Source of the DNA: Clarkia xantiana subsp. parviflora
Taxonomy: Eukaryota > Streptophyta > Magnoliopsida > Myrtales > Onagraceae
DNA length: 64,000 nt
Direction of reading: 5' to 3'
Assembly (NCBI GenBank): GCA_036873135.1
Contig: JAPTYO010000002.1
Span: 22,346,452-22,410,451 of the forward strand
In this document: positions 19,291 through 64,000 of the stretch, piece after piece
Position numbering within the stretch: position 1 is the stretch's first letter
Layout of the letters: each line of letters opens with the position of its first letter
Position numbers and translations under genes: made by a program
The notes under the pieces: generated by a model
The model's input: the letters and a program-made list of their open reading frames with translations, nothing else
The model's database searches: none
What the model was told of the DNA's origin: nothing

Positions 19291-19339
19291 CTCAAAAAGT
19301 ATTGATTTTTTTTTTTACAGATTTTTAATATAATTTAAT

Positions 19340-29579: not shown

Positions 29580-29616
29580 AGAAGTACTGCTTTCAGATAT
29601 GTCACTGCGTCTCCAG

Positions 29617-29628
29617 CTTGAAGGGGGG
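29617..29628 (+). other. Polypurine tract of the copia element
   Basis: TTGAAGGGGGG directly before the right LTR, where second-strand synthesis is primed. Confidence 0.8.
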
Positions 29629-31726: not shown

Positions 31727-31780
31727 TTGGCGTCGTCTGTGGGAAACTTACAAAAAGTCAAGATAATTTCTACCAGATCA

Positions 31781-32864: not shown

Positions 32865-35800
32865 GTGTGGAGCATGGAGGCCCTGCAAGCGAGGGTGAAA
32901 CAGCAAATCGACGTCCAGGAGTCGAAGATTGCTGCCGGAGAGCTCGATCCCCCGAAATCGGGGAGAGGAAAGCCATCGTCCAAGCTATCGGATGATCGCA
33001 AAGGGAGCGACAAGTCGGAAGGAAGCAGGAACCGTGGTCGTCCCGATAAAAGAGAAGACAAGCGTCCTCCGAGGAAGGATAACCGAGAAGGTCGGGCCGT
33101 TCCCATCAATAGCTCGATGACCTCTGTGTTAGCTGTGATGGACAGACAGGGTCTCGCTCGATACCCCCCGAGGAAAGAAGGCGAATTCCTAGGAGGCCGC
33201 CCTGACCGTTACTGTCGCTACCATCGAGCCAATGGTCACGACACCGAAAACTGCCGGGAGTTGAAGAAGGAAATTGAGAAGCTGATCCAGAAAGGGAAGC
33301 TAAAAGAGTTCGTCGGAAGGGGACGGTGCCGATCCCGTTCCAGAAGTCGGTCACGATCCCGTTCCAAGTCTCGTGAGCGATCCCCGAAGAAGAAGAAGGT
33401 TGAGCCAGAAGCCTCAGGTTCGGGTGCCCGCAAGGAGAGGCGGGGAACTATCAACGTCATCCATGGAGGAATGGCGGCGGGAGGTGATACCTCCGCTTCA
33501 CGGGAGAACTACGCTTCCCGCATATCTGCCGCGGTGGTGTTAGGCAAAAGGTCCCGGTCGTGGACTCTGAAGGAGGAAATGGTGATTTCTTTCTCGGCGG
33601 AGGATCTAGTAGGCGTGGAAAGCCCTCACGACGACGCCTTGGTCGTGACCCTGGACGTGGATGGATTCGAGATGAAGCGGATCCTGATAGACGGAGGGAG
33701 TTCCTCTGATATTCTTTTCATGGACGCTCTGGAGGCCATGGGAAAGACGAAAAAAGACCTCACACAGGTGGACTTCCCGATGGTGGGATTCTCTGGTTCC
33801 ACTTCTTACCCGCTGGGAATGATTACCTTACCGGTGGAGTTTGGTAGTGGCTGGAAGATGGAGAAGCGAAACGTAGATTTCGTCGTAGTGGAGTCTGCGG
33901 GGGCATACAACGCTATTATCGGGAGGACCACTATCAACCCTCTCATGGCAGTCGCCTCGACGGTCCACCAGAAGATGAAGTTCCCGACTGACAACGGAGT
34001 CGGAGAGGTCAAGGGCGACCAAGTGGCGTCGCGAAAATGCTATGTTAACGCTACCCGAAGGAGAAGGAGGGAGGCCATGACTGTCCTTCAGACTGATGCC
34101 GATCCTCGAGAGGAGTATGGGCGTCCCGCCCCCATGGAGGATTTGAAGGAAGTTGAGATCGATGGACCTCAAAGGAAAGTGAAGATCGGGTCTGCTCTGT
34201 CGGAGGAAAGAGCCAAAGAGTTGGTCGAGCTCCTGAAGGAGTTTAAGGAGCTGTTTGCCTGGTCCCCGAGTGATATGCCAGGAATCAGCCCCGACGTGAT
34301 AGTGCACGAGTTGAAGATAGACCCCTCGATTAACCCTATCGCGCAGAGAAGGCGTCCGATGGGCGCGGACAAGAGGATCGCGATCCAACAAGAGGTGGGC
34401 AGACTGCTCGATGCGGGATTCATCAAGGAGCTCCGATTCCAGACTTGGGTGGCTAACCCAGTCCTGGTGCGAAAAAGTAAGTGGCGGATGTGTGTCGATT
34501 TCCGCGACTTGAACAAGGCTTGCCCGAAGGATTGCTACCCGCTCCCGAGGATTGACCAGTTGGTGGATGCCACATCGGGACATGAGCTGCTGAGCTTCAT
34601 GGATGCCTATTCCGGGTATAACCAGATCAAGATGGCGAAGGAGGATGCCCCCCATACGGCCTTTTATGCCGACAGTGACGTCTACCATTACGACGTGATG
34701 CCCTTCGGATTGATCAATGCCGGAGCGACTTACCAACGAATGGTGAACAAGTTGTTCGGAGATATGTTGGGGAAAACCATGGAGGCGTATGTGGATGACA
34801 TGCTAGTGAAGTCCCGACAGGCAGGAGACCATGTCCAGAACTTGGCGGCAGCATTTGAGCGGATGAAGTTCCATCAGGTTCGGCTGAACCCCGACAAATG
34901 TGCTTTTGGGGTGAACTCGGGGAAGTTCCTAGGGTTCATGGTGAGCCAGAGAGGAATCGAGGTGAACCCCGAGAAGCTGCGAGCAATCGAGGAGATGCAG
35001 TCCCCGAAGACTCATCGGGAGGTCCAGGTGCTGAATGGCCGGTTGGCCGCGATGAATCGCTTCCTATCCAAGGCGAGTGACCGAGCCATGCCATTTTTTG
35101 ATGTGCTGAGGGCCCACAAGAAATTCGAATGGACCGACAAGTGCGAGGAGGCGTTCCAGGCACTCAAGCAACACCTTCGTACTCTTCCGCCGTTGGCGAA
35201 ACGAGTTCCAGGCGAGCCGCTTTACCTCTATTTGGTTGTTTCTGATGTGGCTGTTAGTTCTGTTTTGATTAAAATTGTCAAGGGCAACCAAGTGCCTATC
35301 TATTATGTAAGCAAGGCGTTTGCCAAGTCTGAAATAAACTATCCCGCTATTGAGAAGTATCTCTTCATGTTGATTATTGCCGCTCGAAAGCTACGACCTT
35401 ACTTCCATGCCCATGAAGTCACGGTATTGACTAATCAGCCCCTAAAGCACTTTTTGAACCGACCGGAGGCGTCGGGGAGATTGGTGAAATGGGCCATCGA
35501 GCTGACGGAATTCCGCATTCATTTCGCTCCGAGAACCGCTATTAAGGGCCAGGCATTGGCAGATTTTATAGCTGAGTCTACGGCACCCGATCTGGAAGTA
35601 ACGGGTCCCGCAGAGGGGGCAACCATGGAGGAAGTCCCGACAACAGAGCAACAGCTAGAAAAGCCAAATGAGGAGAATACTTGGGAGATGTACACTGATG
35701 GTTCATCGAGTGTAGAAGGCTCGGGGGCAGGATTCGTATTGATACCGCCCGGTGGAGGCGAGCCCCTACGATATGCCTTGGCGTTGACGTTCAAAGCCAC

Positions 35801-37187
35801 CAACAACGAAGCGGAGTATGAAGCTCTCATCACAGGCCTTAAGATTGCCAAGGGTACGGGGGTCGATCATTTGAAAGTGAAGTGCGATGCCAGCCTGATC
35901 GTGAATCAGGTCCAGGGGAATTATGAAGCCAGGAGCCCGACAATGAAGAAGTATTTGCACGAGGTGCAGACTTTGAAGGGAAGCTTCAAAAGCTTCGATA
36001 TCGAGGCGATCCCGAGGGAAGAAAACGCGGAAGCAGATGCCTTAAGCAAGTTTGCTCTGGGAGTGGCCCCCGAGGAGAATCGGAAGGTACATTTCCTAGA
36101 GAAGGTGATTATCTTGAACATAGATCCAGCGGAGATCTGCACTATTGAGACAGGATCGGAGGAAGAAGAGAAGCCCACTTGGATGACCCCGATGGTCACA
36201 TACCTGACTACGGGGGCACTCCCCGATGATAAGGTGGCAGCTGTCAGGTTGCGTCGGATTGCGGACAACTACGCGATGGTGGATAACCAATTGTACAAAA
36301 AAGGGTATGTAAAGCCTTTCCTAAAATGCGTGGCGGAACCCGACACGAATCGGATCCTGAGGGAACTACATGAGGGAGTCGCGGCCTGTCATGAAGGGGC
36401 CCGATCTCTTGTGAGGAAGGCACTGAACTTGGGCTACTATTGGCCTTCGATGAACAAGGAAGCGACAGCAATGGTCCGATCCTGTGATGCATGCCAGAGG
36501 TACGCTCCAAATATCGTGGCTCCCGCCGCGGACTTAATGCCCATCAGGAGTGCATGGCCCTTCGCGCAATGGGGGATTGACTTGGTGGGACCTCTTCCCC
36601 AAGCGAAAGGTCAGTGCAAGTATTTGCTCGTGGCCATCGATTACTTCTCAAAATGGATAGAGGCTAAGGCATTGGCCAGGACAACGGGGCAGCAGATCCT
36701 CAAGTTCCTTCAAACTCAGATCATATCCCGGTATGGGGTCCCTCGAGTGTTGATCAGCGACAACGGCCCTCCGTTCAATGGGACTCAGTTGAAGGAGTAC
36801 CTGGAGGAGTTGAACATCGAACATCGGACCGCTTCAGTCCGCCACGCTCAAACCAATGGCCAGGTGGAATCAGCCAACAAGATCGTGATGGATGGCTTGA
36901 AAAAGAGAGTCTATGCCTTGCAGGGCCATTGGTTAGATGAGCTCGAAAACGTGCTGTGGGCTGTGAGAACAACACCCAAGCAATCGACAGGAGAAACTCC
37001 GTTTGGCCTGGTCTATGGCACGGAGGCAGTCACTCCCGTGGAAATAGCGGTGGCGTCCCATCGCGCGAAATATTACGAGCCTCTGACAAACGAGGAAATG
37101 AGGCGTCTAGACTTAGACTTGCTTGAGGAGAAAAGATGGAAGGCTGACGAAGTCCAGGCCCGAATGCGTCTGGCAACAGCCCGATAG
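32865..37187 (+). CDS. Tat gag C-terminus and polyprotein: PR-RT-RH-aRH-INT
   Basis: A 1440-codon open frame. Gag zinc knuckle CRYHRANGHDTENC (about 127-140). RS-rich basic stretch (about 155-175). Protease DGGSSSDILF near 276. Reverse transcriptase: MCVDFRDLNKACPKDCYPLP, FMDAYSGYNQI, catalytic YVDDML near 642. The native RNase H is degraded at its first acidic site (VVSDVAVSSVLI). The archaeal-type RNase H MYTDGSSSVEGSGAGFVL has a downstream NNEAEYEAL. Integrase HHCC: HEGVAACHEGARSLV and CDACQRYA; core GIDLVGPLPQ and ISDNGPPFNG. A TAG at 37185-37187 cuts the frame before the integrase C-terminal segment. Except for that and the gag lesions it is remarkably open. Confidence 0.92.
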   Translation: MWSMEALQARVKQQIDVQESKIAAGELDPPKSGRGKPSSKLSDDRKGSDKSEGSRNRGRPDKREDKRPPRKDNREGRAVPINSSMTSVLAVMDRQGLARYPPRKEGEFLGGRPDRYCRYHRANGHDTENCRELKKEIEKLIQKGKLKEFVGRGRCRSRSRSRSRSRSKSRERSPKKKKVEPEASGSGARKERRGTINVIHGGMAAGGDTSASRENYASRISAAVVLGKRSRSWTLKEEMVISFSAEDLVGVESPHDDALVVTLDVDGFEMKRILIDGGSSSDILFMDALEAMGKTKKDLTQVDFPMVGFSGSTSYPLGMITLPVEFGSGWKMEKRNVDFVVVESAGAYNAIIGRTTINPLMAVASTVHQKMKFPTDNGVGEVKGDQVASRKCYVNATRRRRREAMTVLQTDADPREEYGRPAPMEDLKEVEIDGPQRKVKIGSALSEERAKELVELLKEFKELFAWSPSDMPGISPDVIVHELKIDPSINPIAQRRRPMGADKRIAIQQEVGRLLDAGFIKELRFQTWVANPVLVRKSKWRMCVDFRDLNKACPKDCYPLPRIDQLVDATSGHELLSFMDAYSGYNQIKMAKEDAPHTAFYADSDVYHYDVMPFGLINAGATYQRMVNKLFGDMLGKTMEAYVDDMLVKSRQAGDHVQNLAAAFERMKFHQVRLNPDKCAFGVNSGKFLGFMVSQRGIEVNPEKLRAIEEMQSPKTHREVQVLNGRLAAMNRFLSKASDRAMPFFDVLRAHKKFEWTDKCEEAFQALKQHLRTLPPLAKRVPGEPLYLYLVVSDVAVSSVLIKIVKGNQVPIYYVSKAFAKSEINYPAIEKYLFMLIIAARKLRPYFHAHEVTVLTNQPLKHFLNRPEASGRLVKWAIELTEFRIHFAPRTAIKGQALADFIAESTAPDLEVTGPAEGATMEEVPTTEQQLEKPNEENTWEMYTDGSSSVEGSGAGFVLIPPGGGEPLRYALALTFKATNNEAEYEALITGLKIAKGTGVDHLKVKCDASLIVNQVQGNYEARSPTMKKYLHEVQTLKGSFKSFDIEAIPREENAEADALSKFALGVAPEENRKVHFLEKVIILNIDPAEICTIETGSEEEEKPTWMTPMVTYLTTGALPDDKVAAVRLRRIADNYAMVDNQLYKKGYVKPFLKCVAEPDTNRILRELHEGVAACHEGARSLVRKALNLGYYWPSMNKEATAMVRSCDACQRYAPNIVAPAADLMPIRSAWPFAQWGIDLVGPLPQAKGQCKYLLVAIDYFSKWIEAKALARTTGQQILKFLQTQIISRYGVPRVLISDNGPPFNGTQLKEYLEELNIEHRTASVRHAQTNGQVESANKIVMDGLKKRVYALQGHWLDELENVLWAVRTTPKQSTGETPFGLVYGTEAVTPVEIAVASHRAKYYEPLTNEEMRRLDLDLLEEKRWKADEVQARMRLATAR

Positions 37188-37412
37188 TACAATCGGCGTG
37201 TCAGGTCCCGACAATTCTTCGTTGGAGAACTTGTCTGGCGGAGGAACGAGTTCGTTCATCAAGATCGGATCAACAAGCTATCGCCAAAATGGGAGGGACC
37301 TTACAAGATTGTAGGGATGCCAGCACCCAATGCATACAAGCTAGAGGACCTTGATGGCAAGACGTTGAAGCATTCCTTCAGTGGCGAACACTTGAAGAAG
37401 TATCATGTTTGA
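37188..37412 (+). pseudogene. Tat integrase C-terminal segment after nonsense codon
   Basis: Same frame as the long ORF after the TAG: GELVWRRNEF, LSPKWEGPYKIVGM, GEHLKKYHV and a stop at 37410-37412. This is the usual end of gypsy integrase, so the TAG is a mutation, not the natural end. Confidence 0.85.
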
Positions 37413-37429
37413 TATTAAGTCGCCGCGAA

Positions 37430-37870
37430 TGGCGCAAGTTATCTATCAATCCGATTAAGACGTCCTGAAGGGCGCGACAAAAAGCCTTATGAGGTACGCG
37501 TAAGACGTCCTGAACGACGCGACAAAAGCCTTCCGAGGTACGAGAAAAGCCTTACGAGGTGCGCGTAAGTCGTCTATATGATGCGGCCAAAAGCCTTAAC
37601 AGGTACGGACAAAAGCCCTACGGGGTATGTGTAAGTCGTCTTTATGATGCAACCAAAAGCCTAGGTACGAAAAGGCCCTAATGGGTCCGCGTAAGTCGTC
37701 TATATGATGCGGCCAAAAGCCTTAACGGGTACGAAAAAGCCTTAGCAGGTCCGCGTAAGTCGTCTATATGATGCGGCCAAAAGCCTTAACGGGTATGAAA
37801 AAGCCTTAACAGGTCCGCAAAAGTCGTCAGAGTTGGCGCGACAAAAGCCCTAAAGGGTGTGAAAAATGGC
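37430..37870 (+). repeat. Degenerate tandem repeat after pol (GTAAGTCGTC...AAAAGCC units)
   Basis: Units built from GTAAGTCGTCTATATGATGC, GGCCAAAAGCCTTAACGGG and TACGAAAAAGCCTTA recur about six times with changes. Non-coding, between pol and the next repeat block. Confidence 0.75.
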
Positions 37871-37883
37871 CTTGAAAGGCGGG

Positions 37884-38265
37884 GACGAGAAACCTTAAGT
37901 GGTGAAGTCCCGATTTTGGACGAGAAGCCTTAAGTGGTAAAGTCCCGATTTTGGACGAGAAGCCTTAAGTGGTGAAGTCCCGATTTTGGACGAGAAGCCT
38001 TAAGTGGTGAAGTCCCGATTTTGGACGAGAAGCCTTAAGTGGTGAAGTCCCGATTTTGGACGAGAAGCCTTAAGTGGTGAGGTCCCGATTTTGGACGAGA
38101 AGCCTTAAGTGGTGAAGTCCCGATTTTGGACGAGAAGCCTTAAGTGGTGAAGTCCCGATTTTGGACGAGAAACCTTAAGTGGTAAAGTCCCGATTGGACG
38201 AGAAACCTTAAGTGGTAAAGTCCCGATTGGACGAGAAACCTTAAATGGTGAAGTCCCGAGTCAAG
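37884..38265 (+). repeat. 35-bp tandem repeat, about 11 copies
   Basis: Unit: ACGAGAAGCCTTAAGTGGTG followed by AAGTCCCGATTTTGG. Copies at 37884, 37919, 37954, 37989, 38024, 38059, 38094, 38129 and 38164 are almost identical. The last two or three are shortened by loss of three or four bases around the TTTT. Sits between pol and the antisense ORF. Confidence 0.92.
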
Positions 38266-38476
38266 CGTCGGAAGAACGTATGGAACCATCTTAAATGGTG
38301 CATCGGAATGTTCTGAGCAACGAATTTAAAGCCGCTTTAAATAAGCGCAAATGATTATCGAGACCGAAACAGATGAAAAGAAGCTGCTTATATAAAGGCT
38401 CGAAGGCCCAAGGGTTCCAATACATAGAATGAAGAAAACGAGGAGAAAAACTACAAGGACTAACAAATATAAAGCA

Positions 38477-38968
38477 CTAAGCTTGGTCCTTGTTGGAGGT
38501 CGGGTCCTCAGCGGCATCGGAGGGAGCAGGATTCGGAGGGGCCTGGGCAGAAGGCCTCGCAGTCCGCGGAGTCGGGTCCACGGCATCAACAGGAGTTGGG
38601 TCCACGGAGTTGGCGGCAGAAGGCTCCACAGGGTCAGCCGTTGGAGGAATGGCTATCGGAATCAGGGGATCGAGGAGTTTCCGATGAAGAAGTAGCTCCT
38701 CTTCACTCTGAACTTGTGGTATGCATTTCCGGCCTTGAGCATCGGCCTCTTTGGTGGAAATGATACATCCTTCCCGGAGAGCTGCATCATAAGCAGTGCT
38801 GAAAATTTCGTCCAGAGCATAGTCGAAGTTGAAAGGCTTCCCTCCCTCGAAACCAGATCCACCATCTGAAATCAGCCATTAAAGGGAAAGTTAGGTTTAT
38901 TCGGAAAACTACAATCAAGCTAAGTAAAGATGAAGGCAAACGATAAAGAAGGAAACCTTACCAGACAT
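38477..38968 (-). CDS. Antisense two-exon ORF in the 3' part of the Tat element
   Basis: Exon 1 is only seven bases (ATGTCTG, 38962-38968) with donor GTAAGG. Exon 2 (38477-38865) follows a TTTCAG acceptor and runs in phase to TAG, giving 131 residues. The protein starts MSDGGSGFEGGKPFNFDYAL, has an acidic/aliphatic middle (EEELLLHRKLLDPLIPIAIP), and ends in a proline/threonine/alanine-rich tail with repeated VDPTP. A TATA box lies about 120 bp upstream on the same strand. No known domain recognised. Extra ORFs antisense to gag-pol are known in some Tat-lineage elements, so a real accessory gene is plausible. A chance ORF cannot be excluded, although start, splice sites, phase and TATA all agree. 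Confidence 0.55.
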
Positions 38969-39085
38969 GGTAAAGCCTTGAATCACTTGAAGAGCAAAAG
39001 ACACGGGGAGAAGAAACTTCGAGTTCAAAAATGGATGCACTTCCAAAAATGGAGACAGTGAAGAAGAATAGTGCCAGGGTCTTAG

Positions 39086-39094
39086 CTTTTATAA
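39086..39094 (-). promoter_or_regulatory. TATA box upstream of the antisense ORF
   Basis: TTATAAAAG on the minus strand, placing a likely transcription start about 90 bp before the ATG at 38968. Confidence 0.5.
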
Positions 39095-39336
39095 GCAAAA
39101 GGACAAACTGGACGGACTTAATCTGGACCGTTGAAGACTGAGGGACGGTACAGAAAAGGCGTTGGTGACGTAATGAGTGCCTTTTTCAGAAAGCAACAGT
39201 CACGCTGATGTAAGCATCGTTTCATAATCCCCAGCATTTAATGCTACAGTAATCAAGGAGTCTCCTCGGATTTGGCAACTGCCCATGGGGTCTGGTGGGC
39301 CCAAGGCAATCATGAGTAAGAGACTCTGTTATACAA

Positions 39337-39440
39337 CAATCACACGCAAGGCAAAAGCCTCCGACGGTGGTATCGGAAGGCATGAAAACAAAAGCCTCCG
39401 ACGGTGGTATCGGAAGGTATAAAAACAAAAGCCTCCGACA
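39337..39440 (+). repeat. Three direct repeats before the 3' LTR
   Basis: AAAAGCCTCCGACGGTGGTA and TCGGAAGG occur twice in full and once in altered form (TCCGACAACGAGGTCAGAAG), about 37 bp apart. Confidence 0.7.
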
Positions 39441-39494
39441 ACGAGGTCAGAAGAGCTGAATTAGAAAGACATGACGAACTAAAAGTCCCCCATG

Positions 39495-39507
39495 TCTTGG
39501 GGGCAAA
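39495..39507 (+). other. Polypurine tract of the Tat element
   Basis: TCTTGGGGGCAAA just before TGATGGG, the LTR start. This site, not the shared AGTAGGCC at 39568, marks the true LTR edge. The LTR at 49-845 also starts TGATGG. Confidence 0.65.
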
Positions 39508-40265
39508 TGATGGGTTCCGATGTAAATCGTTAGCTCCGTTAATAGCCAATGGACGGCGAGTAGGTCCAGTAGGCCTCGTGAAAAGCCTGGGCCCAGAGGC
39601 CCAGCACGAAGGGCCCCGACTCTAGTGGTCCCGATGTATGAGCTGAATGCTCCCGATGAGAAGCCTCTGAGTAGACCCCGATATGCCTTAGTAAAGGCCC
39701 CGATAATAAAGCCCCGCAGAGGCTGGACCCGTCCCGTAGAGACTGAAGGTCCTGGGTGGTGATCTAGAATGAGACAACTCTGGAGTCTCCGACAGGAGTC
39801 GGGACTTGTGATCAGAGGATAAAAGACCGAGAAACCCGCCTACTAGATAGAGTAGTGGGAGACGGTTAGAGATAAAGATAAATTCCCCGAGATACGCAGG
39901 GCGTGCCCGAGATACGCGGAGTACGGGTAAGATACGCGGAGCGTGGGGCGAGATATATGGAATCCCAACCGAGATATGCGGAATCGTGGCGAGATACACG
40001 GAATCATGGGTAAAACTGCCAGGCGCAGTAACAGGTAACTGAGTAACTTCCCCTCCTATATAAAGGAGGAAGTTACCTCAGAAAACCATCATCTAATACG
40101 AACTTAGACTTTTTGCTTACCACCCATTGATCACATACTCATTTAAGCATCGGAGAGGGATTCTGGGTCACCACCCAGGTCATCCCCTTTTGCAGGATTA
40201 CGCGGAGCCCAGGAGTCCAGAGCTTTCCGTCAAGGACGTAACGGAGCTTCGCCCGTGATCCAACA
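39508..40265 (+). repeat. 3' LTR of the Tat element, full length
   Basis: TGATGGGTTCC...GATCCAACA, 758 bp, TATATAAA at 40057-40064. Its first 60 bp and a ~30-bp stretch near 39757 are missing from the 5' copy. Confidence 0.8.
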
Positions 40266-41124: not shown

Positions 41125-42018
41125 GAGTTAATAACCAAGTTGCTACCCGGACTTTGACCAGTTTACAAATCGTTACCTTGACTTTAATTTTTTTAAATTG
41201 GCTACCATAATTTTTAAATTTAGATCAAATTGCTACTTCTGTATTAATTCTCGTCAAATTGGAATGAAAATGAGCATATTTTTGCAACGTGGCGTCTTTT
41301 CATGTGTACCAAAGATGGATTCAAATATTAATTGAAAGTATTGTAAAAAAAATACCTTCAATTCAGCGCTCAATTGAAATGCACTGTTTGAATTTGGTGG
41401 AAGTCCAATTGGGCATCTAACTGAAGTTATTTCGTTGCAATACTTTCAATTTATGTTTGAATACATCTTGGGTACGTATCAAAAGACCCCACGTGGCAAA
41501 AATCTGATCATTTTCTAACCAGTTTGGCGGGAACAGGATTTACTAGGATCATTTGAAAGTATCCATGCTTTAAACTTATTTTTGCAAATATTTTATTTAC
41601 AATTTTACCCAAAAGTTTGTAAAATTAAAGTGAATAATCACAATGATTATAAAAGTGGATTTTAAGATTTTATTTTTGAATTTAAATGTTAAGGTTTATA
41701 TCGTAGAAAAATAAAAATAAGAGTTTAATAAAAACACAAAATAATATTACGGGGGCAAAAATGAAAATAAAATAATTACTAATAAGAGACAAAGTATAAT
41801 GTTCTTAAAATTGAAGGATTAAACCATAAATAAAATAATTGCTAAACGAAAATAATGCATGGAAGCACCAATAATTTAAAATGATGTTAGACAAACCTGA
41901 AATGATGTAATAATTTGCTCTGAAATTGAAAATTCGGGTAGGCAATTTTGAAAAATTGAAGTTGAGGTAACGATTTGTAAAATGATCAAAGTTCGGGTAG
42001 CAATTTGGTTATAAACCC
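41125..42018. mobile_element. Inverted-repeat MITE, family copy 1
   Basis: The left end AATAACCAAGTTGCTACCCG pairs with CGGGTAGCAATTTGGTTAT at the right end, and ACAAATCGTTACC pairs with GGTAACGATTTGT. The middle (41280-41540) matches the element at 56573-57085. Copy 1 has about 370 bp extra near 41550-41920. No coding. Confidence 0.7.
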
Positions 42019-46824: not shown

Positions 46825-47473
46825 TTACCGTTCCATAAAGTACATCCATCGATATTGAACCGGTCCACCAAGCTTTGCTTCACGTGGCAAATGGATTATA
46901 AGATGTACCATTATGGTGAAGAAACCAGGTGGGAAAAATTTCTCCATTTTGCATAAAGTAAGTGCAACCTCTGATTCCAAGTTATCTAACTCAGCTGGAT
47001 CAAGCACCTTGGCGCACAACTTCTTAAAGAATGTTGAAAGCTCTGAAATGAGTGCAAGAATGGTCTTGGTGGCTACGCCTCTTAATACAATTGGAAGTAT
47101 ATCTTGCATCAGGATATGACAATCATGACTCTTAAGATTAATTAAATTCCGCTCTTTCAAGTTGACACATCTTGATATGTTCGAGGCATATCCATCAGGC
47201 ACTTTCAAACCCTTCAAAATAGTTAAGCACATATCTTTCTCCTTGGGAGTTAAATTGTAGCATGCTAATGGGTAATAATTTGGACGATCCTCGTACAGAT
47301 GAAGTTCAGGTCTTATACCCATCTCTCTTAGGTCACGACGTGCTTGAATATTATCCTTGCTTTTCTTATCTTGATACAACAAAGTTCCAATCAAATTGTC
47401 AAACACATTTTTCTCAATGTGCATTACATCCAAATTATGACGAAGAAGATTGTATTCCCAATAAGGCAAGTCA
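46825..47473 (-). pseudogene. TNP2-like transposase, central part after the MITE
   Basis: Minus strand: FFDLPYWEYNLLRHNLDVMH then IEKNVFDNLIGTLL, the hallmark of plant TNP2, followed by the DUF4218 region (AELDNLESEVALTLCKMEKF FPPGFFTIMVHL, EAKLGGPVQYRWMYFMER). The frame is open for over 200 codons. Its upstream neighbour is separated by the 840-bp MITE insertion. Confidence 0.85.
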
Positions 47474-47482
47474 AAAAATATA

Positions 47483-48322
47483 GGGTTAAATGTACTTTTC
47501 ATACCACATGTTTGGCCGAATGTGGCTTTTAGTACCGGATGTTTGGTTTTGTATACTTTTGGTACCAAACGTTTAAAAAAATGTGGCTTTTGGTACATCC
47601 GTTAGTTGGCCGTTAGTTTTTTCCATTAAGTGACATGTGCAAGTCACGTGACCGACCCTAAACTTTCGATTTTGTTCAATTTAGTCCCTCAAATATATTC
47701 ACAACTTTTAATTTAGTCTCAAAAATTCAAAATCAATTCCAATTGAATCATCGAACCCAATTGACCTAGTCGGACCTAGACTAGGGCTAGGTCCGAACCT
47801 GGGTTGGGGTCGCCAGACCCAGCCGACCTTGACCCAGGGTCAGACCTAGCCCTAGGCTAGGTCCAGCTAGGTCTATTGGGACCTAGCCCAAATTCGACCC
47901 AAATTGGGCTAGGTCCCAATTGACCTAGCCGGACCTAGCCTAGGGCTAGGTCCGACCCTGGGTCAGGGTTGGCTGGGTCCAAGTACCCCGAACCAGGGTC
48001 GGAACCTAGCCCTAGGCTAGGTCCGGCTAGGTCAATTGGGTTCAATGGTTAAATTGGAATTGATTTTGAAGTTTTGGGACTAAATTAAACAAATTAAAAG
48101 TTGGAAATATATTTGAGGGACTAAATTGAATAAAATCGAAGGTTTAGGGTCGGTCACGTGACTTGCACATGTCATTTAACGGAAAAAACTAACGGCCAAC
48201 TAACATATGTACCAAAAACCACATTTTTTCAAACGTTTGGTACAAAAAGTATACAAAACCAAACATCCGGTACTAAAAACCACATTCGGCCAAACATGTG
48301 GTATGAAAAGTACATTTAACCC
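47483..48322. mobile_element. 840-bp MULE-type MITE inside the TNP2 gene
   Basis: A perfect 9-bp target duplication AAAAATATA lies at 47474-47482 and 48323-48331. The ends are GGGTTAAATGTAC...GTACATTTAACCC with terminal inverted repeats of over 200 bp, including AGTCACGTGAC. The centre holds many CCTAGCC / GGCTAGG palindromic motifs (47755-48040). No transposase. The 9-bp duplication and GGG ends mark it as Mutator-like. Confidence 0.92.
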
Positions 48323-48331
48323 AAAAATATA

Positions 48332-49867
48332 CTACACTTCTTCCATACTTGTGCTTGATAGGGTTGAGCCTGAGAGATTCCCGGTATGTCATCTTCTTGA
48401 TGATCCATTTGTTCCGACTCCTCAAAAGTGTAAAGCTCTTCAATTGCATCAGATTGAGTGAATGATGAACTATTAACATCTCTGCCCCTCTTTTTTTGAT
48501 ATATTTGATGATTTATCATATACAAACTTCGTTCCTCCAATTTGACGCAGCACATCAGTACCGGTTGGTGGAGTAGGAGCAAAACCAAGCTCAACTGTAT
48601 TATCAAACTCTTCTTTTTTTATAACGAAAAGGATGATTTGTTTCAAGCCACCGTCGACTTCCTAAGTAGGAAAACTTCTTCCCATGCTTTAGCCAACGAG
48701 AATTAGTTGAAGTTGTGCAACATGGACAAGCAATATGACCCCTCGTACTCCACCCATATAGATTAGAATATGCAGGAAAGTCATTAATTGTCCACATCAA
48801 ACATGCTCGTAGAGAAAACTCTTCACCAGCAAAAGCATCAAATGTTGTAACACCAACCCACAACTGTTTTAACTCATCAATTAATGGTTGCAGATATACA
48901 TCAATATCATTACCAGGTCCTTCCTCACCTGGAATAACCATTGATAGTATAAGAGACGACCGTTTCATGCATGTCCACGGCTCCATATTATATGGGACTA
49001 ATACAACTGACCACGTGCTATGTGTTGTGCTCATTGTCCTGAATGGATTGAAACCATCACTAACTAAGCCTAAACGAACATTCTGAGGATCAGATGCGAA
49101 GTCTTCATAAAGCTTGTCAAATGCTTTCCACGCCTCAGCATCAGCTGGATGACGCAACTTTCCATCTTTTGTGCGACCAATTTCATTCCACCTTATAGAT
49201 AACCAAGATCAAGCTTCCTAATGATCTTCTTAGCATCATAATATGATGAGGGAAGTGACTTGCATTGAGGAAAAACCTCTTTAAGTAATTCAAGAATCAA
49301 TGTAAGTAACTTAGACGATGAACCCCCTGCTAATGCTTTGATATGGTAAATCCGTATAACAAATGACAAAGTTGTGAAGTTTGTACAACCCGGGAAAAGA
49401 GGATCATCTGAATCACCTAAAAGATCATTTAACAAACTTCCTTCACTGACATTCTCCCTAACAAAATATTTATCATTTTCATAAGTATCCTCCCCCGTGT
49501 TTATTCTAGATGTAAAGTCTTCAGTGTGTGAAACACTTGATCTTTCCCTTATGATACTAGTCCTTATCTCTTGATAATTTGCTTCTAGGTTCTCAGGTTC
49601 TTGTTCCAGGCCACCTCTCTCCCCATGGAACACCCAAAGTTGTTGGCCATAATTCCATATGAACCCTACACAAATAAGATGTTCCTCCACCAATTCTGGA
49701 GTCTTGGTATACCGGTTGTAGCAATTCTTACACGGACAATAAATATTCCCATTAACCGGAGCTCTCTCAAGGGCAAATTTAATGAAAGCTTTCACACAAT
49801 TTTCATAAGTTGAGCTTGATCTAGATAACATAACCGAGCTTTTATTCATTGCTCTCAAAAAGCACAA
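48332..49867 (-). pseudogene. TNP2-like transposase, N-terminal part
   Basis: Minus strand. 49193-49867 carries the Transpos_assoc domain (YENCVKAFIKFALE, YCPCKNCYNRY, HLICVGFIWNYGQQLWVFHG). 48603-49157 carries Transposase_21 (NVRLGLVSDGFNPFRTMS, FSLRACLMWTINDFPAYSNL, YGWSTRGHIACPCC). 48332-48606 is the lead-in to the LPYW region. A frame break lies between 49157 and 49193, with loss of the usual CPNDC/CxxC segment, and another near 48603. Confidence 0.82.
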
Positions 49868-55063: not shown

Positions 55064-56572
55064 CTGTGATGGTTGAAAATGCCTAGGATTCATGTCTAGA
55101 AGCTTGCGTGATTGAATATAAGCATGAATTGCAAATCAGACCCTAATATTTAAAATCGTTTTTAAATCTGAAAACCAGTCGCCAAATATGTATGATTGAT
55201 GTGGATGTTAAATGTTTGACACGTATGCTAGAATGTTAAGGATGTAGTTGTGTTTGATCATTTACTTAAAAGTAGAATTATAAATGCAAGTATGAGTTCC
55301 TCGGGACATTAAACGCATGACGCATAAGCATGTATGTGGTATGAATGATGAATGTTACTAGCATATGATAATTTGCATGGATTGTAGAATTGTGTATGCA
55401 TGAGTGAATTCATCGGAATGATTTTCCAAAACAAAAATGGCATTGGGAAAGCCAAGATTGGGTATGCTTATTTTAAAATTCATGATCCGGTAATTTGCGA
55501 TTAAAACCGTTTTTTAAGAAACTGGTCTATTGGATAGAAGACGACGATAGCGTGAACTCTTTCATAGCCATCTTCCATTAGTTTACTGGTGGTCGGTTGG
55601 TTTAGATGACTAAAGAACCAAATTTCTTCAAAATGAATTTTGTCAAATAAGCTAGTTAGAAGAGTTGCTTGATTTTACTAAAATATTTTCTTTCTACAAC
55701 GGAAATTGATGACTATCACCTAAAAGTCTTACAGGTAAAACATCTTCAACAAACACAAGGTTATAGAGTAGAAAAATCAGCTAAATAACTAAAACCTACC
55801 ATGTCATGAGTTCATTCAAAATATTTACCACACGACATTGTATTAGTCCTACAATTGAAAAGAGTGTATGAAATTTCTTATTAATGTCCATGACATGCAA
55901 TTAAGAAATATAACATAATTCAGAAGCCTCCTTTTATGAGTATATATATATATTCAAATAAAAATATGGAGGTCTAAATTTGCTCAGATCCACATACAAA
56001 AGGATGACCTTTAAAAAGCGATGTGAGGCATAACTCTAGTAATAACCAACTAATTTAGCAGGAAAACTACCAGGAAAACTAATTTGACAGGCATTGTAAC
56101 TAATATAATAATTTGTTATTTGCTCAATCATTAAAAATTCGAATAGCCATTTAAAAAAATTCAAATAACAATTCATAATAAAATCAAAATTAATGTAGCA
56201 TTTTATTTATTAATTCTTATTTGTAATAAGATAATATAATTTATATGCATATACTCTTTAAGAATATATTTTTTGATTGACTTGAGAGAAACTTCGTAAT
56301 TCGTAAATTCGTATAGCCGAAGAATCTATTACAAGTCGAATCAGAATAAATGCACGTGACAATTGTCAAAGGGAAAATTTGAACTTTGGTATCCATGTCC
56401 AGTTCTCTATGGTAGGTAGTAGTAGTCAAAGCGAAATTCGCTTCCGCCGAATAGAGAGTATCACCCTTACAAACTATAATAGAAAGAGTTCTTGGTTTAA
56501 CTTTTTTTTTTTTTTTTTTTTTTTTTTCTAAAGAGTTATGATATAAGCTTGAAATTTAAAAAGATAAATTAA
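55064..56572. other. Intergenic, nothing recognised
   Basis: AT-rich DNA with a T run at 56502-56527. No gene, repeat family or regulatory site could be supported. Confidence 0.4.
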
Positions 56573-57085
56573 AGGGTTAATAACCAAATTGATACCTGCG
56601 TTTTGACCAATTTATAAAGTATTATAGGAATTTTAATTTTTTAAATCGGCTATTTAAACTTTCAATTTCATAGCAAAATGCTACGTATGTTACAATTCTC
56701 GTATAATTGAACAAAAAATGGGCATATTTCCACAACGTTGGATTTTTCCATGTGTACCAAAGAAGAATTTAAATATAAATCAAAAGTATTATAAGGAAAT
56801 ATTCAATTGGATATTCAATTGGAAGGGATTGTTCGAACTGAGCGGAAGTCCAATTGATCATCTAATTGAATGTATTTTGTTGTAATACTTTAAATTTGTG
56901 TTTGAATCCATCTTGATTACACATTAAAAGACTCAACATGATAAAAACATGCTCATTTTATATCTAATTTAGCAGAAATTGAAATAGATGTAGCAGTTTG
57001 TTATGAAATTAAAAGTTTAGCTTGCCAATTTAAAAAAATTAAAGTTCAGATAGCAATTTATAAATTAGTCAAAATTCAGATAACA
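56573..57085. mobile_element. Inverted-repeat MITE, family copy 2
   Basis: The left end GGGTTAATAACCAAATTGATA pairs with the right-end GATAACAATTAAAT region, and the interior (CCATGTGTACCAAAG, GTCCAATTGATCATCTAATTG) matches 41280-41540 of copy 1. Ends are more degraded than in copy 1. Confidence 0.6.
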
Positions 57086-57119
57086 ATTAAATGAGTGTCT
57101 ATAGTAATAGATGGCCGAA

Positions 57120-57337
57120 ACCATGTAACAATGGTGTGATGGTTCAACGCCTCATCCCTTAAGCAGAGGTCAGGGGTCAATCCCCGCTAATGACCATGGG
57201 AATGAAAAATTGTCCATGGCCAGCACTTTACCTCTTACAGGCTGACCCTATGCGAGTGGGGATTAGTCTAGGTATATATTCTTATATAGTCTAGGGCCCC
57301 TAGGACCACCCCGCGGGAAACCGAGAAAAAAAAAAAC
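57120..57337 (+). mobile_element. tRNA-derived SINE, copy 2, near full length
   Basis: A-box-like ATGGTGTGATGGTTCAACG at 57131, B-box GGGTCAATCCC at 57173-57183, then ATGACCATGGGAATGAAAAA, ending in an A run at 57325-57336. A 7-bp target duplication GGCCGAA lies at 57113-57119 and 57338-57344. Opposite orientation to copy 1. Confidence 0.85.
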
Positions 57338-57734
57338 GGCCGAACAAATGAAAATTAATCAAACTGAAACTGAAACACTTAATATTAATATATTTTAAAT
57401 ATAAAACACCTATTAGGAATATGAATTATATTTGAGGCTGTTTTTAATTCTCAACTTTTATATCTATGTTATAATAAGAAATTTAATGACTGAAGTTTTA
57501 GAGTAAGAACAATTGTTAGTTAATAAATAATTTGTTAGCGGAACTAATATGACTCTACAATCTATCTATATATATTATAAATTCTGAAGGAAAGATAATA
57601 ACAGAGTAATTGTGGAGCTAATGATTTTGTTTTTACGTTAATCGATGCATTTATGACAATTGAGCTAAGAGTTTTGTAATCATTAACTCAATAACATTGA
57701 TTGCACTAGGGAGCTGAGGGTTTTTAAGTAGTAA

Positions 57735-57965
57735 TTAATCGCAATTAAAATTTCGCTGATTTCGAACCGTTTAAGATTCAATGTATACAATTAATCGCAA
57801 TTAAAATTTCAGACTATTCAAGATTCAATGTATTCAATTAATCGCAATTAAAATTTCTCTAATTTCGAGCCGTTCAAGATTCAATATATGCAGTTAATCT
57901 CAATTAAAATTTTGGATCGTTCAAGATTCAATGTATTTAATTAATCGAAATTAAAATTTTGCTGA
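57735..57965. repeat. Degenerate ~50-bp tandem repeat, four to five copies
   Basis: TTAATCGCAATTAAAATTT followed by CGxxxCGTTCAAGATTCAATGTAT recurs at 57736, 57789, 57838, 57895 and 57940. Confidence 0.7.
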
Positions 57966-59031
57966 TTTTTAACAGACGCTTGATGCGGAGCCGGCGAACG
58001 AAGATACAAGGCGGTACGAGCGGCTGACAGTCTCAGTAGTAGAGTCATCTATATCTCCGGCGAGATATCGCCGGTGGTCATCGAAGACATATCTGGTGAA
58101 GAAGAGACGCTTGACACGGATCTGACGACCAAATGTAGCATGTGGTACGGACATCTAAAATTTATTTGTGGATTTTCGCAATGGTATTTTATGGTTCAAA
58201 ATTTTCAACTTTTCGTTTACTTTTTCAAATTTTAGATTGATATTTTATTTAAAAATAGTGTTTCAACATATTACAAATAGTCAGTACAAATTTCATCGAA
58301 TATTAGTTTGTTAATTATACGTATTTGGTAAGTCATCCCGCGAGATGCGCGGAAAATGCATCTAGTTTGTTGTTAATTCAACTTTTGGTTACTTCTAAAC
58401 ATAAAATCTTACATGTCGCACAAACATCTAAGTTACATCTTCAACATTCTTTTTTATGTGGTTAACTAAAACCTTGGTAGTTGAACTTTTGGAATATGGT
58501 GAATCTACAATTTTTTTTAAAGAATCTAAGTACATCTAACCTGAAGTGTAAAAGGAGTTTTTAAGTGTTTTTTTTATCCACCCAGCAAGTGCATACTTGT
58601 TATACGATATCTATCTATTACATAAATAAAAATTTGTAAATTTAAATTGTCCTCACACAAAAAATGTCCTCATAAAAAATTTGTAAATTCGAAATATTTT
58701 TATCAAACTAAAAGTTGTATCTTTTCACCAAAAGGTACTTTCGCACCGAGCGGACACCAAACCACCAAAAAAAGTACATGTCAATTAGCAATTCTTATGG
58801 AGAAATTATTGAATACACGGTTCTAACACGTGTCCGCCACCTGGTGGCACTTCACCCATTCAAAATGCAACACGTGTCCTGAACTTTCCCGTCACTACTT
58901 CTCAGTTTCTGCAACTCTCTCTCTCGGTCACTTTTTCTGACACACTCTCTAGGTCTTTCTTTTTATTCTAATATAATCAATATTAATTTTTCTCTCTCCA
59001 TCTACTCATTAGTTAAATTAAATGTAATAAA
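57966..59031. other. Upstream flank of the FAR1-related inverted duplication
   Basis: Contains two AACACGTGTCC boxes (58825-58835 and 58869-58879), G-box/ABRE cores, and a CT-rich stretch at 58915-58960 of the sort found in plant promoters and leaders. A GC-richer stretch at 57985-58145 has no recognisable product. Confidence 0.4.
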
Positions 59032-61066
59032 CAGAGGAGAGAGATGTTATTTGATGGCTTGATAGATGATGGATGGGTCTTATCTCTTGCGTACGTGAGA
59101 TAATGTTAGAATTTTTTTTGTTTTTTTCATTAAAAAATATTACTAGAAGATAGTCAGTCCTCTATAAGAGATTGTTGTTTTACTAGAAAGATAGGTAGCT
59201 CATTAATAACTAATAAGAGATAAGATGGTCTTTTTTAAGAGATTGTTGTTTTTACTAGAAACTAAGATAGGTAGCTCAGCAATAAAAGATAGTCTTCTTC
59301 GGTGTGAATAATATTAGAAACTAGAAAGGTTGTTTTCTTTATAATAAAAGAATTGTTTAATTAACATATATATATATATATATATATAAATAATACATTC
59401 ATTATGTAAATATTTAAAATAAATTCTGATTTTATAATTATTTCCCATTTTTCATGAATTTATTATATATTTTTTTCATAATAGTTAAATTATATAATAT
59501 TATTCATATGTTCATCATTTTTTTTTTTCAAATCCATGAATTATATTTGAGAGTTTGCTCAGCTTTATTATAATTTTAAAGAGGCTGCTTATTTTTTATA
59601 ATTAATTTTAGAAATTTTCTTTTGTAAAAAACTATTTTTTTTTTCCATACTATTTGTTTTAACTCAAAATTTTGGCTTTCTTTTTATACAATTTCAAATT
59701 TTTGAGAAGTAGGTGGTGTAGGTAGCTTCTGAACATACTTGCATGTAATAAATTTGAGTTAAGGAATTTAAGAAAGAATAATGAAAAATGAAAAGATATT
59801 CTAATTAATGAAACATAGTACAATAGCTTTTATTTCCACAACTACTACAACTTCCTATCGTAGTGTCTAAGACTCAAACCAAGAAGAAGAAACTCCATCT
59901 GAGACCAAAACAAAGAGGTTTAGGGTTCTTCATATTGCTCTTCATCTCCAAGATTTATGAGCTAGTTCATGTATTCCACTTCTTATCTCTATCTCCCAGA
60001 AAGAGTTTTATGAGGTATTATTTTTGCACTAAATAAATTATATATATGTGTTGTACATTTCTGAAAATTATTGTACAATTTATAGTTAATGGTTTTCTTT
60101 TAAATAGAGTTTACTTTTGCACACAATTACTTCTAACAAATAATATAAACTAAATTTATTTTATATATTGTATTTGATCATGCAGATGAATTGTCAAAAG
60201 GACTATGTTGCTGGAGGTAACCATCTATTTTATGCAATTTGATATATTCTAATTATAACCTTACCTTTTTTAATTGTTTCCCTCATTTTTACTTCTAAGC
60301 ATTGTTGAGATATTTTCATGAGAATACTAGATATTACATAAACTCAAAAAATTATAGATATTAACTTGGAAATTAATGGAACATGTTACATAAGTTTTTT
60401 TGGATTTTTAATTTTTTATCACATGACTTTAATTTTTTTTATATGATGTTTTGTGGTTGTTTGTAGCTTGTGCGATGGTTTTAGCCTGAGAGGAAAACAA
60501 TGATATAGTAAAAAAGGTGGATCATAGTGAAAAAGAAGCATATAATTTGTATAATGAATATGCTTATAAGAAAGGTTTCAGCGTTCGAAAAGGAACATCA
60601 AGGTACTATGGTGGTACAAAATTGTTTCGCCAAAAAGAGTATTGTTGTTCCAAAGAAGGTTATAGTGAAGACCCTAGCCCATGTGAGTCTACACAATACA
60701 ATAGACTTATCGTTAGAACTGGTTGTAAAGCAATGAATTCGATTCACGGTTGAAGATGAGATTTGGAGGATGACATGTTTCTGTGATGAGCATAATCATG
60801 AGTTAGCAAGTGAAGAAGAGAAGCACTTTCTAAGATCAAGAAGAAAAATGACCGACTCAAAAGCTCTTGCTATCAAGACAATGGTGAATTCTGGCATAAA
60901 AACGGATCAAGCTTTCAACTATATGGCAGGGGTTGCTGGTGGTGTTGAAAACGTCGGTATACTAAAAAGAGATTGTTACAATCTCGTGAATAAAGAGAAG
61001 TTGTCACTAATCGAAGTGGGGGATGCACAAAGTTTATCCCGGTGGTTCAAAGGTCAAAGAAGCAAT
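59032..61066 (+). repeat. Left arm of a long inverted duplication (FAR1-related gene 5' half)
   Basis: From GAGGAGAGAGATGTTATTT at 59032 to GGTCAAAGAAGCAA at about 61066 the sequence returns in inverse at 61313-63301, by eye well over 90% alike. A 53-bp stretch near 59833-59885 is absent from the other arm. Confidence 0.92.
60186..61066 (+). pseudogene. FRS: FAR1-related sequence (FRS), N-terminal FAR1 domain, left copy
   Basis: FRS proteins are transposase-derived transcription factors. Exons: 60186-60216 (MNCQKDYVAG) and 60467 onward, joined in phase. The FAR1 DNA-binding domain is clear: SEKEAYNLYNEYAYKKGFSV, EYCCSKEGY, RTGCKAM, CDEHNHELASEEEKHFLRSR, zinc ligands C/C/H/H in place. Lesions: TGA at 60487-60489, and a frame change near 60735 between GCKAM and FTVEDEIWRMTC. 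The reading ends at the palindrome centre after RWFKGQRSN, so the MULE transposase and SWIM domains are absent. A 5' UTR exon with donor GAG|GTATTA is likely to end at about 60013. Confidence 0.8.
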
Positions 61067-61312
61067 ACATTGTTTGCTTCTTTGACCTTTGAACCACCGG
61101 GATAAACTTTGTGCATCCCCCACTTCGATTAGTGACAACTTCTATTTATTCACGAGATTGTAACAGTCTCTTTTTAGTATACCGACGTTTTCAACACCAC
61201 CAGCAACCCCTGCCATATAGTTGAAAGCTTGATTCGTTTTTATGCCAGAATTCACCATTGTCTTGATAGTAAGAGCTTTTGACATGTTTCTGTGTTGGGG
61301 TATTCACCATAA
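61067..61312. repeat. Centre of the inverted duplication, with an extra inverted copy
   Basis: TACATTG (61067-61073) is the loop of the tightest palindrome. 61074-61280 is an inverted copy of 60860-61066. 61281-61312 (GACATGTTTCTGTG...TTCACCATAATC) is a short foreign patch. After it the same inverted copy starts again and runs to the end of the right arm. Confidence 0.85.
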
Positions 61313-62197
61313 TCATTGCTTCTTTGACCTTTGAACCACCGGGATAAACTTTGTGCATCCCCCACTTCGATTAGTGACAACTTCTCTTTATTCACGAGAT
61401 TGTAACAGTCTCTTTTTAGTATACCGACGTTTTCAACACTACCAGCAACCCCTGCCATATAGTTGAAAGCTTGATTCGTTTTTATGCCAGAATTCACCAT
61501 TGTCTTGATAGTAAGAGCTTTTGAGTCGGTCATTTTTCTTCTTGATCTTAGAAAGTGCTTCTCTTCTTCACTTGCTAACTCATGATTATGCTCATCATAG
61601 AAACATGTCACCCTCCAAATCCCATCTTCAACCGTGAATCGAATTCATTGCTTTACAACCAGTTCTAACGATAAGTTTATTGTATTGTGTAGACTCACAT
61701 GGGCTAGGGTCTTCACTATAACCTTCTTTGGAACAACAATACTCTTTTTGGCGAATCAATTTTGTACCACACTATAGTACCTTGATGTTCCTTTTCGAAC
61801 GCTGAAACCTTTCTTATAAGCATATTCATTATACAAATTATATGCTTCTTTTTCACTATGAGCCACCTTTTTTACTATATCATTGTTTTCCTCTCGGGCT
61901 CAAACCATCGCACAAGCTACAAACAACCACAAAACATCATATAAAAAAAATTAAAGTCATGTGATAAAAAATTAAAAATCCAAAAAAACTTATGTAACAT
62001 GTTCCATTAATTTCCAAGTTAATATCTATAATTTTTTGAGTTTATGTAATATCTAGTATTCTCATGAAAATATCTCAACAATGCTTAGAAGTAAAAATGA
62101 GGGAAACAATTAAAAAAGGTGAGGTTATAATTAGAATATATCAAATTGCATAAAATAGATGGTTACCTCCAGCAACATAGTCCTTTTGACAATTCAT
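61313..62197 (-). pseudogene. FRS: FRS N-terminal FAR1 domain, right (inverted) copy
   Basis: Same exons as the left copy on the opposite strand, including the same frame change before FTVEDxIWRVTC, so that lesion predates the duplication. The stop differs: here TGA lies at 61900-61902, two codons earlier, while the left-arm TGA position reads CGA. The last residues read on from RSN into DYGEYPNTETC, then hit the extra inverted copy. Confidence 0.78.
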
Positions 62198-63301
62198 CTG
62201 CATGATCAAATACAATATATAAAATAAATTTAGTTTATATTATTTGTTAGAAGTAATTGTGTGCAAAAGTAAACTCTATTTAAAAGAAAACCATTAACTA
62301 TAAATTGTACAATAATTTTCAGAAATGTACAACACATATATATAATTTATTTAGTGCAAAAATTATACCTCATAAAACTCTTTCTGGGAGATAGAGATAA
62401 GAAGTGGAATACATGAACTAGCTCATAAATCTTGGAGATGAAGAGCAATATGAAGAACCCTAAACCTCTTTGTTTTGGTCTCAGATGGAGTTTCTTCTTC
62501 TTAAGCTATTGTACTATGTTTCATTAATTAGAATATCTTTTCATTTTTCATTATTCTTTCTTAAATTCCTTAACTCAAATTTATTACATGCAAGTATGTT
62601 CAGAAGCTACCTACACCACCTACTTCTCAAAAATTTGAAATTGTATAAAAAGAAAGCCAAAATTTTGAGTTAAAACAAATAGTATGGAAAAAAAAAAAGA
62701 GTTTTTTACAAAAGAAAATTTCTAAAATTAATTATAAAAAATAAGCAGCCTCTTTAAAATTATAATAAAGCTGAGCAAACTCTCAAATATAATTCATGGA
62801 TTTGAAAAAAAAATGATGAACATATGAATAATATTATATAATTTAACTATTTTGAAAAAAATATATAATAAATTCATGAAAAATGGGAAATAATTATAAA
62901 ATCAGAATTTATTTTAAATATTTACATAATGAATGTATTATTTATATATATATATATATGTTAATTAAACAATTCTTTTATTATAAAGAAAACAACCTTT
63001 CTAGTTTCTAATATTATTCACACCGAAGAAGACTATCTTTTATTGCTGAGCTACCTATCTTAGTTTCTAGTAAAACAACAATCTCTTAAAAAAGACCATC
63101 TTATCTCTTATTAGTTATTAATGAGCTACCTATCTTTCTAGTAAAACAACAATCTCTTATAGAGGACTGACTATCTTCTAGTAATATTTTTTAATGAAAA
63201 AAACAAAAAAAATTCTAACATTATCTCGTGTACGCAAGAGATAAGACCCATCCATCATCTATCAAGCCATCAACTATCTATTAAATAACATCTCTCTCCT
63301 C
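61313..63301 (-). repeat. Right arm of the long inverted duplication
   Basis: Inverse of 59032-61066. It includes the FRS leader, introns and FAR1 domain, and ends at AACATCTCTCTCCTC, where similarity to the left arm stops and FRS C-terminal exons begin. Confidence 0.92.
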
Positions 63302-63916
63302 AAGCACTAGTGATGGAACTCGAGAAAGTCAACTTGTTGATGAAGAACCCATTTTTGATCCACCGATAGCAAGAGCCAAAGGGGCTTCATCTATAAGATT
63401 GAAAAGTCACTTTGAAAAACGTAAGAAGAAGGCAAAAGAAGCGTCTACTTCAAGTAAGTAATTTTTTTAAACATGGTTATGGTAAATTAATGATATATCG
63501 AATGACATATATATTATTGTGCATAGGAAAACCAAAACAAAATTTGGACAAAAATAGTGAAACAAATGCAATTTCAATTGATGTTGCAAACTATCCTCAG
63601 GTATATGTTTACATGCTTATATATTAATAGTTTTATTTTATATTACATTCATTTTTTAGTCGAAATAAGTATATTTGTGTGTTCATATTAATATTTGTAT
63701 ACTTGCTGCAGGGGTTTCATTATATGCATATGGCACAACATTATTACTTGGATCCATATGTTCAACAAATGCAAATGGTACATTACATATGAGTTTAATT
63801 TTTACTTAACTAACAGTTTTATTGCAAATATCAACTAATATTTTTCTTAGGCTAATCCTTATACCCCATTTACAAATATGATGCAAGGGATTACTCCGTT
63901 TTCAAATTTCAATGCG
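63302..63916 (+). pseudogene. FRS: FRS C-terminal exons (running off the right edge)
   Basis: Plus strand, in phase: about 63302-63453 (EEPIFDPPIARAKGASS, KRKKKAKEASTS), 63527-63600 (KPKQNLDKNSETNAISIDV), 63712-63777 (GFHYMHMAQHYYLDPYVQQM), 63851-63916 (ANPYTPFTNMMQGITPF); all four ends have GT-AG sites. DPP...KG followed by a basic KKKR-like stretch is the usual end of FRS proteins. The middle of the gene, which should lie between the left arm and here, is replaced by the inverted copy. Whether a further exon completes it lies outside the window. Confidence 0.65.
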
Positions 63917-64000
63917 GTACGTGTTCATATATATGCTTAGTATATATATATATATTATAATTATTTACGATGAAAATATTATGCGGATATACTCTTAATG

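Follow-up and report, generated by a model that had tools for sequence, protein, structure and literature searches.

Organization of the locus

The DNA analysed here is a stretch of 64,000 nucleotides from Clarkia xantiana subsp. parviflora (contig JAPTYO010000002.1, positions 22,346,452 to 22,410,451 of the forward strand), referred to below as the window. Near its right end, the window contains a palindrome in which the promoter-side half of a gene of the FAR1-related FRS family is followed by an inverted copy of itself and then by C-terminal exons that resemble those of FRS5-like proteins. The features of the palindrome and of the surrounding gene are given below in window coordinates.

58820-58960, + strand: candidate promoter left of the arms and outside the duplication, with two ACACGTGTCC sites followed by a CT-rich tract (motif count against shuffles)
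59034-61066, + strand: left arm (copy A), made up of an upstream region, the 5' leader, two predicted introns and the FAR1 exon (self-alignment)
60015-60185, + strand: predicted leader intron of the left arm, with GT/AG ends
60217-60466, + strand: predicted second intron of the left arm, with GT/AG ends
60467-61066, + strand: FAR1 exon of the left arm, not open throughout: the frame shifts near 60735, and a stop codon lies shortly before the FAR1 frame (PF03101, tblastn, translations)
61074-61282, - strand: copy B, an extra and partial inverted copy of left-arm positions 60857-61065 (self-alignment)
61283-61314, no strand: junction filler between copy B and the right arm, partly like the left arm near 60772 (12-base match against shuffles)
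61315-63301, - strand: right arm (copy C), an inverted copy of the left arm that lacks the 51 bp of 59830-59880 (self-alignment)
63302-63453, + strand: FRS5-like C-terminal exon with an open frame, its 5' end coinciding with the junction (BLASTP to P0076, E 7.6e-12)
63527-63600, + strand: second predicted C-terminal exon, open frame
63712-63777, + strand: third predicted C-terminal exon, open frame
63851-63916, + strand: fourth predicted C-terminal exon, open frame; the gene may continue beyond the end of the window

Comparison of the palindrome arms

Alignment of the left arm with the right arm over 1,973 columns identified 19 substitutions and seven indels (11, 1, 6, 2, 1, 51 and 2 bp). The divergence is 0.96%, leaving the arms about 99% alike, a likeness that is far beyond chance. 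The 51 bp absent from the right arm constitute the largest indel and the next largest is 11 bp. Transitions account for 12 of the 19 substitutions, which is not striking as a deamination bias. In a self-comparison of the window limited to matches of at least 150 bp, the arms are the longest inverted repeat and not the sole one.

The 209 bp of copy B lie between the arms and are repeated in direct orientation, with a period of 242, where the right arm begins. Copy B differs from the left arm at 4/209 positions and from the right arm at 2/209. At three of the five variable sites, copies B and C agree against copy A, and copy B carries one private difference. Since the two inverted copies share these three states, both appear to descend from one inverted copy. 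The filler that separates them has a 12-base core match to the left arm, a match that was reached in 16 of 2000 shuffles.

A palindrome of this kind could also be an artefact of assembly or sequencing, that is, a mirror read, given that long-read chimeras can yield such structures. We consider this highly improbable here, as the 19 substitutions are scattered, the arms differ by the 51-bp and 11-bp indels, and there is a third copy with a difference of its own. Both the different flanks and the changes specific to one arm speak against a mirror made in assembly.

Gene family and the missing central region

A match to PF03101, the FAR1 DNA-binding domain, was found on the left arm at 60490-60750 (E 9.7e-14, profile positions 2-65), while the right arm returned only fragments under the Pfam cut-off. 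The four predicted C-terminal exons (63302-63916) maintain a single open frame throughout; they have no Pfam match, and by BLASTP against 153 fetched FRS-type proteins they resemble FRS5-like C-termini (best E 7.6e-12). The sequence-only reading had proposed an inverted duplication composed of the promoter-side half of an FRS gene, its inverted copy and C-terminal exons of the same family. The arm alignment establishes the duplication as real, the two family matches bear out the anatomy, and the coordinates were right to within a few bases.

For a wider family search, the left-arm pieces and the C-terminus were joined with X between them. Among 545 candidates, 36 proteins were matched with E <= 0.001, and many of the named ones are FRS5-like. 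When one of these 36 relatives served as the query, 1,566 proteins were found, of which the best 120 were listed. A 122-aa piece of the FAR1 exon gave one candidate and no match in a search whose length limit probably left out longer relatives, and an 87-aa FAR1 piece had no match in the PDB. Membership of the FRS5-like group by descent is found over the FAR1 exon and the C-terminus.

The extent of the missing region is apparent from a comparison with P0038, a protein of 725 aa from Hevea brasiliensis. The left arm corresponds to residues 36-224 and the C-terminal exon to residues 684-721, with no match in the window for the residues between 226 and 684 (tblastn, E 1e-3). The middles of six other FRS-type proteins likewise had no match in the window at the same threshold. 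Thus, about 460 residues comprising the transposase and SWIM part are absent from the window, and only the FAR1-side and C-terminal parts were matched. Since the middle residues find no match, the inverted copy occupies the place of the transposase and SWIM part. Some members of the FRS family are without the transposase domain, the SWIM domain or both.

A FAR1 domain alone is no proof of a host gene since plant transposases of the Jittery type, which belong to Mutator-like elements (MULEs), are described as bearing an N-terminal FAR1 domain (PMC6446971). Judged from the names of the relatives, descent of the present locus from a host gene is likely.

A broken FAR1 reading frame

Neither arm keeps the FAR1 frame intact, and one frameshift is common to them. 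In the left arm, the FAR1 match resumes in another frame from 60737, with the tblastn frame change placed near 60732-60747. The right arm has an upstream 2-bp insertion in addition to the shared frameshift, which returns the outer parts to one frame and leaves the stretch between the two lesions out of frame and with stops. A stop also lies shortly before the FAR1 frame in both arms, in each at a different codon. Two properties of a functional FRS gene are thus missing: neither arm holds a FAR1 domain in an open frame, and central MULE transposase and SWIM domains were not detected in the window with seven FRS-type proteins as tblastn queries.

From the common frameshift, the gene was probably dead at the time of copying. 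The break would thus predate the separation of the arms, unless conversion carried the frameshift from one arm to the other; of these, an FRS5-like gene that was already broken when copied is probably the better description. Frameshift and nonsense lesions are reported to be common in the divergence of the FAR1 family (PMC8599713).

Among the 13 exon differences between the arms, 12 alter a residue or a stop. In the absence of selection, 74% would be expected to do so (probability of at least 12, 0.11), and the observed proportion gives no sign of coding constraint. When the exon piece was scored over 146 family proteins, the right arm was better in 109 and the left arm in 32. The commonest residue of the family is found in the right arm at 60759 and 60770, in the left arm at 60941, and in neither arm at 60783, 60869 and 60905. 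The derived residues in each suggest that decay is present in both arms.

Predicted RNA structure and transcription signals

An RNA spanning 59850-62535 (2,686 nt) was predicted to fold with a minimum free energy of -2077.0 kcal/mol, and 1,186 of its 1,253 base pairs join the arms. The corresponding value was -258.4 kcal/mol for a single arm (1,217 nt) and -1469.7 kcal/mol for a fold without the two left-arm introns. Uninterrupted runs of the stem reach 242 nt. The locus therefore has the long, near-perfect inverted repeat, foldable as one RNA, that characterizes a hairpin locus of small interfering RNAs (siRNAs), and it is a plausible candidate source of hairpin RNA. A stem of about 2 kb had been proposed from the sequence alone. 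The folding is upheld by the calculation; the length would be reached only with transcription from the left of 59034, and a leader start near 59850 would reduce it to about 1.2 kb.

The two ACACGTGTCC sites left of the arms (58826-58835 and 58870-58879) are the only matches in the window, compared with a mean of 0.04 in shuffled sequence, and one of 100 shuffles contained at least two. We take this motif to be a G-box core and infer that the 58820-58960 region may serve as a promoter. Because the duplication includes the leader, transcription could equally well start on both sides and run inward, and a start at the inverted leader could give overlapping antisense RNA. CACGCGC, presumably the FHY3/FAR1 binding site, has three matches in the window and none near the palindrome. 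No Rfam match was obtained for 56000-64000. The observed/expected ratio of CpG falls to 0.0 across the leader and introns, stands at 0.31-0.36 for the outer arms and 0.72-0.76 for the exon copies, and reaches 1.11 in the left flank; these counts are small in AT-rich DNA and no inference on methylation is drawn from them.

An RNA begun in the left flank, or at one of the two leaders that face inward, would fold into a near-perfect duplex of 1.2-2 kb. Plant Dicer-like enzymes would be expected to cut the duplex into siRNAs of 21-24 nt, with the locus of origin as their first target. Such processing and self-directed silencing are what plant RNA silencing generally leads one to expect, and we infer dicing and self-silencing of the palindrome on this basis; its transcription is presumed.

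Origin of the palindrome

No target-site duplication was found at the arm ends and there is, as a consequence, no sign that the unit was transposed. A MULE with long terminal inverted repeats (TIRs) would be expected to have a duplication of about 8-11 bp at its ends. The same test elsewhere in the window returned a direct repeat of 6 bp for a copia element and, for a fold-back element that begins at 47483, one of 11 bp with a single mismatch. These results bear on the proposal that the palindrome is a Mu-killer-like or long-TIR derivative of a transposon, in which MULE termini form the ends of the arms and the unit either moved or originated within a MULE. The N-terminal FAR1 domain of Jittery-type transposases would fit this origin, as would maize Mu killer, which holds two copies of one MuDR end (PMC3440606). 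Along with the absent target-site duplication, the 2 kb arms exceed the TIRs of 14-500 bp described in the cited paper (up to 640 bp in its table) and the right arm directly adjoins an FRS5-like C-terminal exon. We regard a MULE derivative as very unlikely.

More probably, a repair or replication accident occurred in an FRS5-like gene that had probably decayed already, and the promoter-side half was copied in inverted orientation into the gene itself. The layout of copy B and the filler leads us to suggest fold-back copying, perhaps with template switching. The inverted copy would have replaced the transposase and SWIM exons, leaving a non-coding palindrome. A single inversion followed by tandem duplication would fit as well, as would a paralog acting as the template.

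The inverted duplication inside the FRS5-like gene is real and fairly recent. With a plant mutation rate of ~7e-9 per site per year, the divergence of 0.96% corresponds to some 0.7 million years, and gene conversion would imply that the duplication is older.

Interpretation

The reading that we prefer, with about an even chance of being correct, is that the palindrome is a fold-back rearrangement that would give double-stranded RNA if transcribed and would act first on its own locus. Several observations weigh against it. The exon part of the arms (60467-61066) is about five times more diverged than the rest (59034-60466), with 13 substitutions in 600 columns compared to 6 in 1,373 (Fisher P 0.0007 for a split that was picked post hoc), a pattern not expected from simple copying followed by neutral decay. 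It could be due to gene conversion, to a template supplied by a paralog or to mutation driven by methylation. In addition, the frame is open in the C-terminal exons and broken in the FAR1 exon, and the filler match to the left arm is modest. Finally, AATAAA signals are found on the + strand within the left arm (59281, 59343, 59418, 59747, 60032 and 60989) and the right arm (62223, 62764 and 62867), and these could stop transcription before a hairpin is formed.

Some of the same evidence would be accommodated by an inert rearranged pseudogene: a palindrome made by repair that is neither transcribed nor diced and will decay. The broken frame in both arms and the polyadenylation-like signals inside them are in keeping with such a fate. 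Further inverted repeats exist in the window, most of them less alike, making fold-back DNA alone unremarkable here. Set against this are the promoter-like sites left of the arms, the duplicated leader within them and a likeness that still stands at about 99%. An inert pseudogene is accordingly a real possibility, if on the unlikely side.

The fold-back reading may be extended from self-silencing to silencing in trans, where hairpin or antisense RNA would give rise to siRNAs against FRS paralogs or FAR1-bearing MULEs. The unbroken stem runs would suit this role, as would the resemblance in design to the soybean GmIRCHS locus, where a pseudogene inverted repeat lies behind a promoter (PMC13051633), and the association of inverted duplication with pseudogene-related miRNA genes (PMC3237417). 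Leader and intron sequence, which need not be common to paralogs, takes up a large share of each arm, and a trans-acting silencer seems unlikely. A narrower form, in which a decayed FRS gene has recently become a silencer whose siRNAs restrain FRS relatives or FAR1-bearing MULEs that are still active, is quite unlikely.

If the fold-back palindrome is transcribed and diced, it would represent a natural case in which a decaying gene, from a family descended from transposases, comes to supply RNA that silences its relatives; with the arms about 1% apart, the process would have been caught at an early stage. Were the young silencer to be genuine, it would show a domesticated transposase family beginning to give rise to a small-RNA locus that acts in trans. 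The arm-specific variants would allow small RNAs to be assigned to one arm.

Other features of the window

Additional inverted self-matches were identified at 47483-48322, 1497-2441, 56587-57088 and 41248-41533, all shorter than the palindrome and most less alike. A further inverted pair consists of 41153-41376 with 56851-57073. The inverted repeats at 56587-57088 and 41127-41533 (~73-77% self-match) match each other and are likely one old fold-back family. Another inverted pair, 12258-12447 with 20239-20429, is 191 bp long, 98.4% alike and 8 kb apart.

The fold-back element at 47483-48322 has arms of ~420 bp with an inverted self-match of 89.6% and the ends GGGTTAAATG/CATTTAACCC. It is flanked on both sides by AAAAATATA, likely a 9-bp target-site duplication, and lies inside a CACTA-like region. 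CACTA-type transposase remnants extend over 46828-49208, with PF02992 (tnp2) at 48606-49208 and DUF4218 at 46828-47601.

Two retrotransposons with long terminal repeats (LTRs) are present. The first, a copia-type element at 24526-29960, is probably a very recent insertion, with two 332-bp LTR stretches that are 100% identical and a flanking direct repeat, CATCTT. The second is a gypsy-type element at 31059-40265 with a reverse transcriptase/integrase open reading frame (ORF) at 32838-37187, LTR-like direct repeats near 31059-31726 and 39567-40265, and repeats with a period of ~35 bp at 37883-38259. A tandem array occupies 16884-19297 with units of roughly 330 bp that are about 96% alike. At 9631-11376 there is a single cytochrome P450 ORF of 581 codons (PF00067), which we take to be CYP86-like.

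Comparison with known systems

Mu killer had been cited in the sequence-only reading for its design, an inverted duplication of part of a MULE gene. The two loci are similar in that Mu killer is a partial inverted duplication, 5' part included, of a gene with MULE transposase descent (PMC3440606). As a precedent for a hairpin it is weaker than proposed: in plants that silence, a promoter within the locus drives two short antisense transcripts, sense read-through transcripts are seen in plants that fail to silence, and the contribution of a long hairpin is left open in that account (PMC3440606). Mu killer is derived from MuDR, has two TIRA ends and silences MuDR (PMC3440606), whereas the palindrome belongs to the FAR1/FRS5-like family, has no target-site duplication that could be found and is only a candidate silencer.

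Inverted duplication is associated with pseudogene-related miRNA genes and has been proposed as a route to new MIR genes (PMC3237417). Young MIR genes of this kind share with the palindrome the inverted duplication of a pseudogene; they differ in that the stem here is >1 kb, near-perfect and without an Rfam match. FRS5-like proteins match over the FAR1 exon and the C-terminal exons, whereas at this locus the frame is broken and an inverted 5' copy replaces the transposase and SWIM part. Among the papers listed by one literature search on FAR1/FHY3 and inverted-repeat small RNAs, none describes an FRS inverted-repeat locus by title.

In the soybean GmIRCHS locus, a CHS pseudogene forms an inverted repeat of 1,087 bp with a 78-bp gap behind a promoter, and double-stranded RNA from it has been detected (PMC13051633). 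As an inverted repeat of pseudoCHS3, it is a candidate for the I allele and silences the soybean CHS genes (PMC13051633). The promoter there comes from part of a DnaJ gene, while the arms of the palindrome carry a leader of their own. Both loci have a close inverted repeat of a pseudogene from a multicopy family behind a promoter or candidate promoter, and by this design GmIRCHS is the closest precedent for the palindrome.

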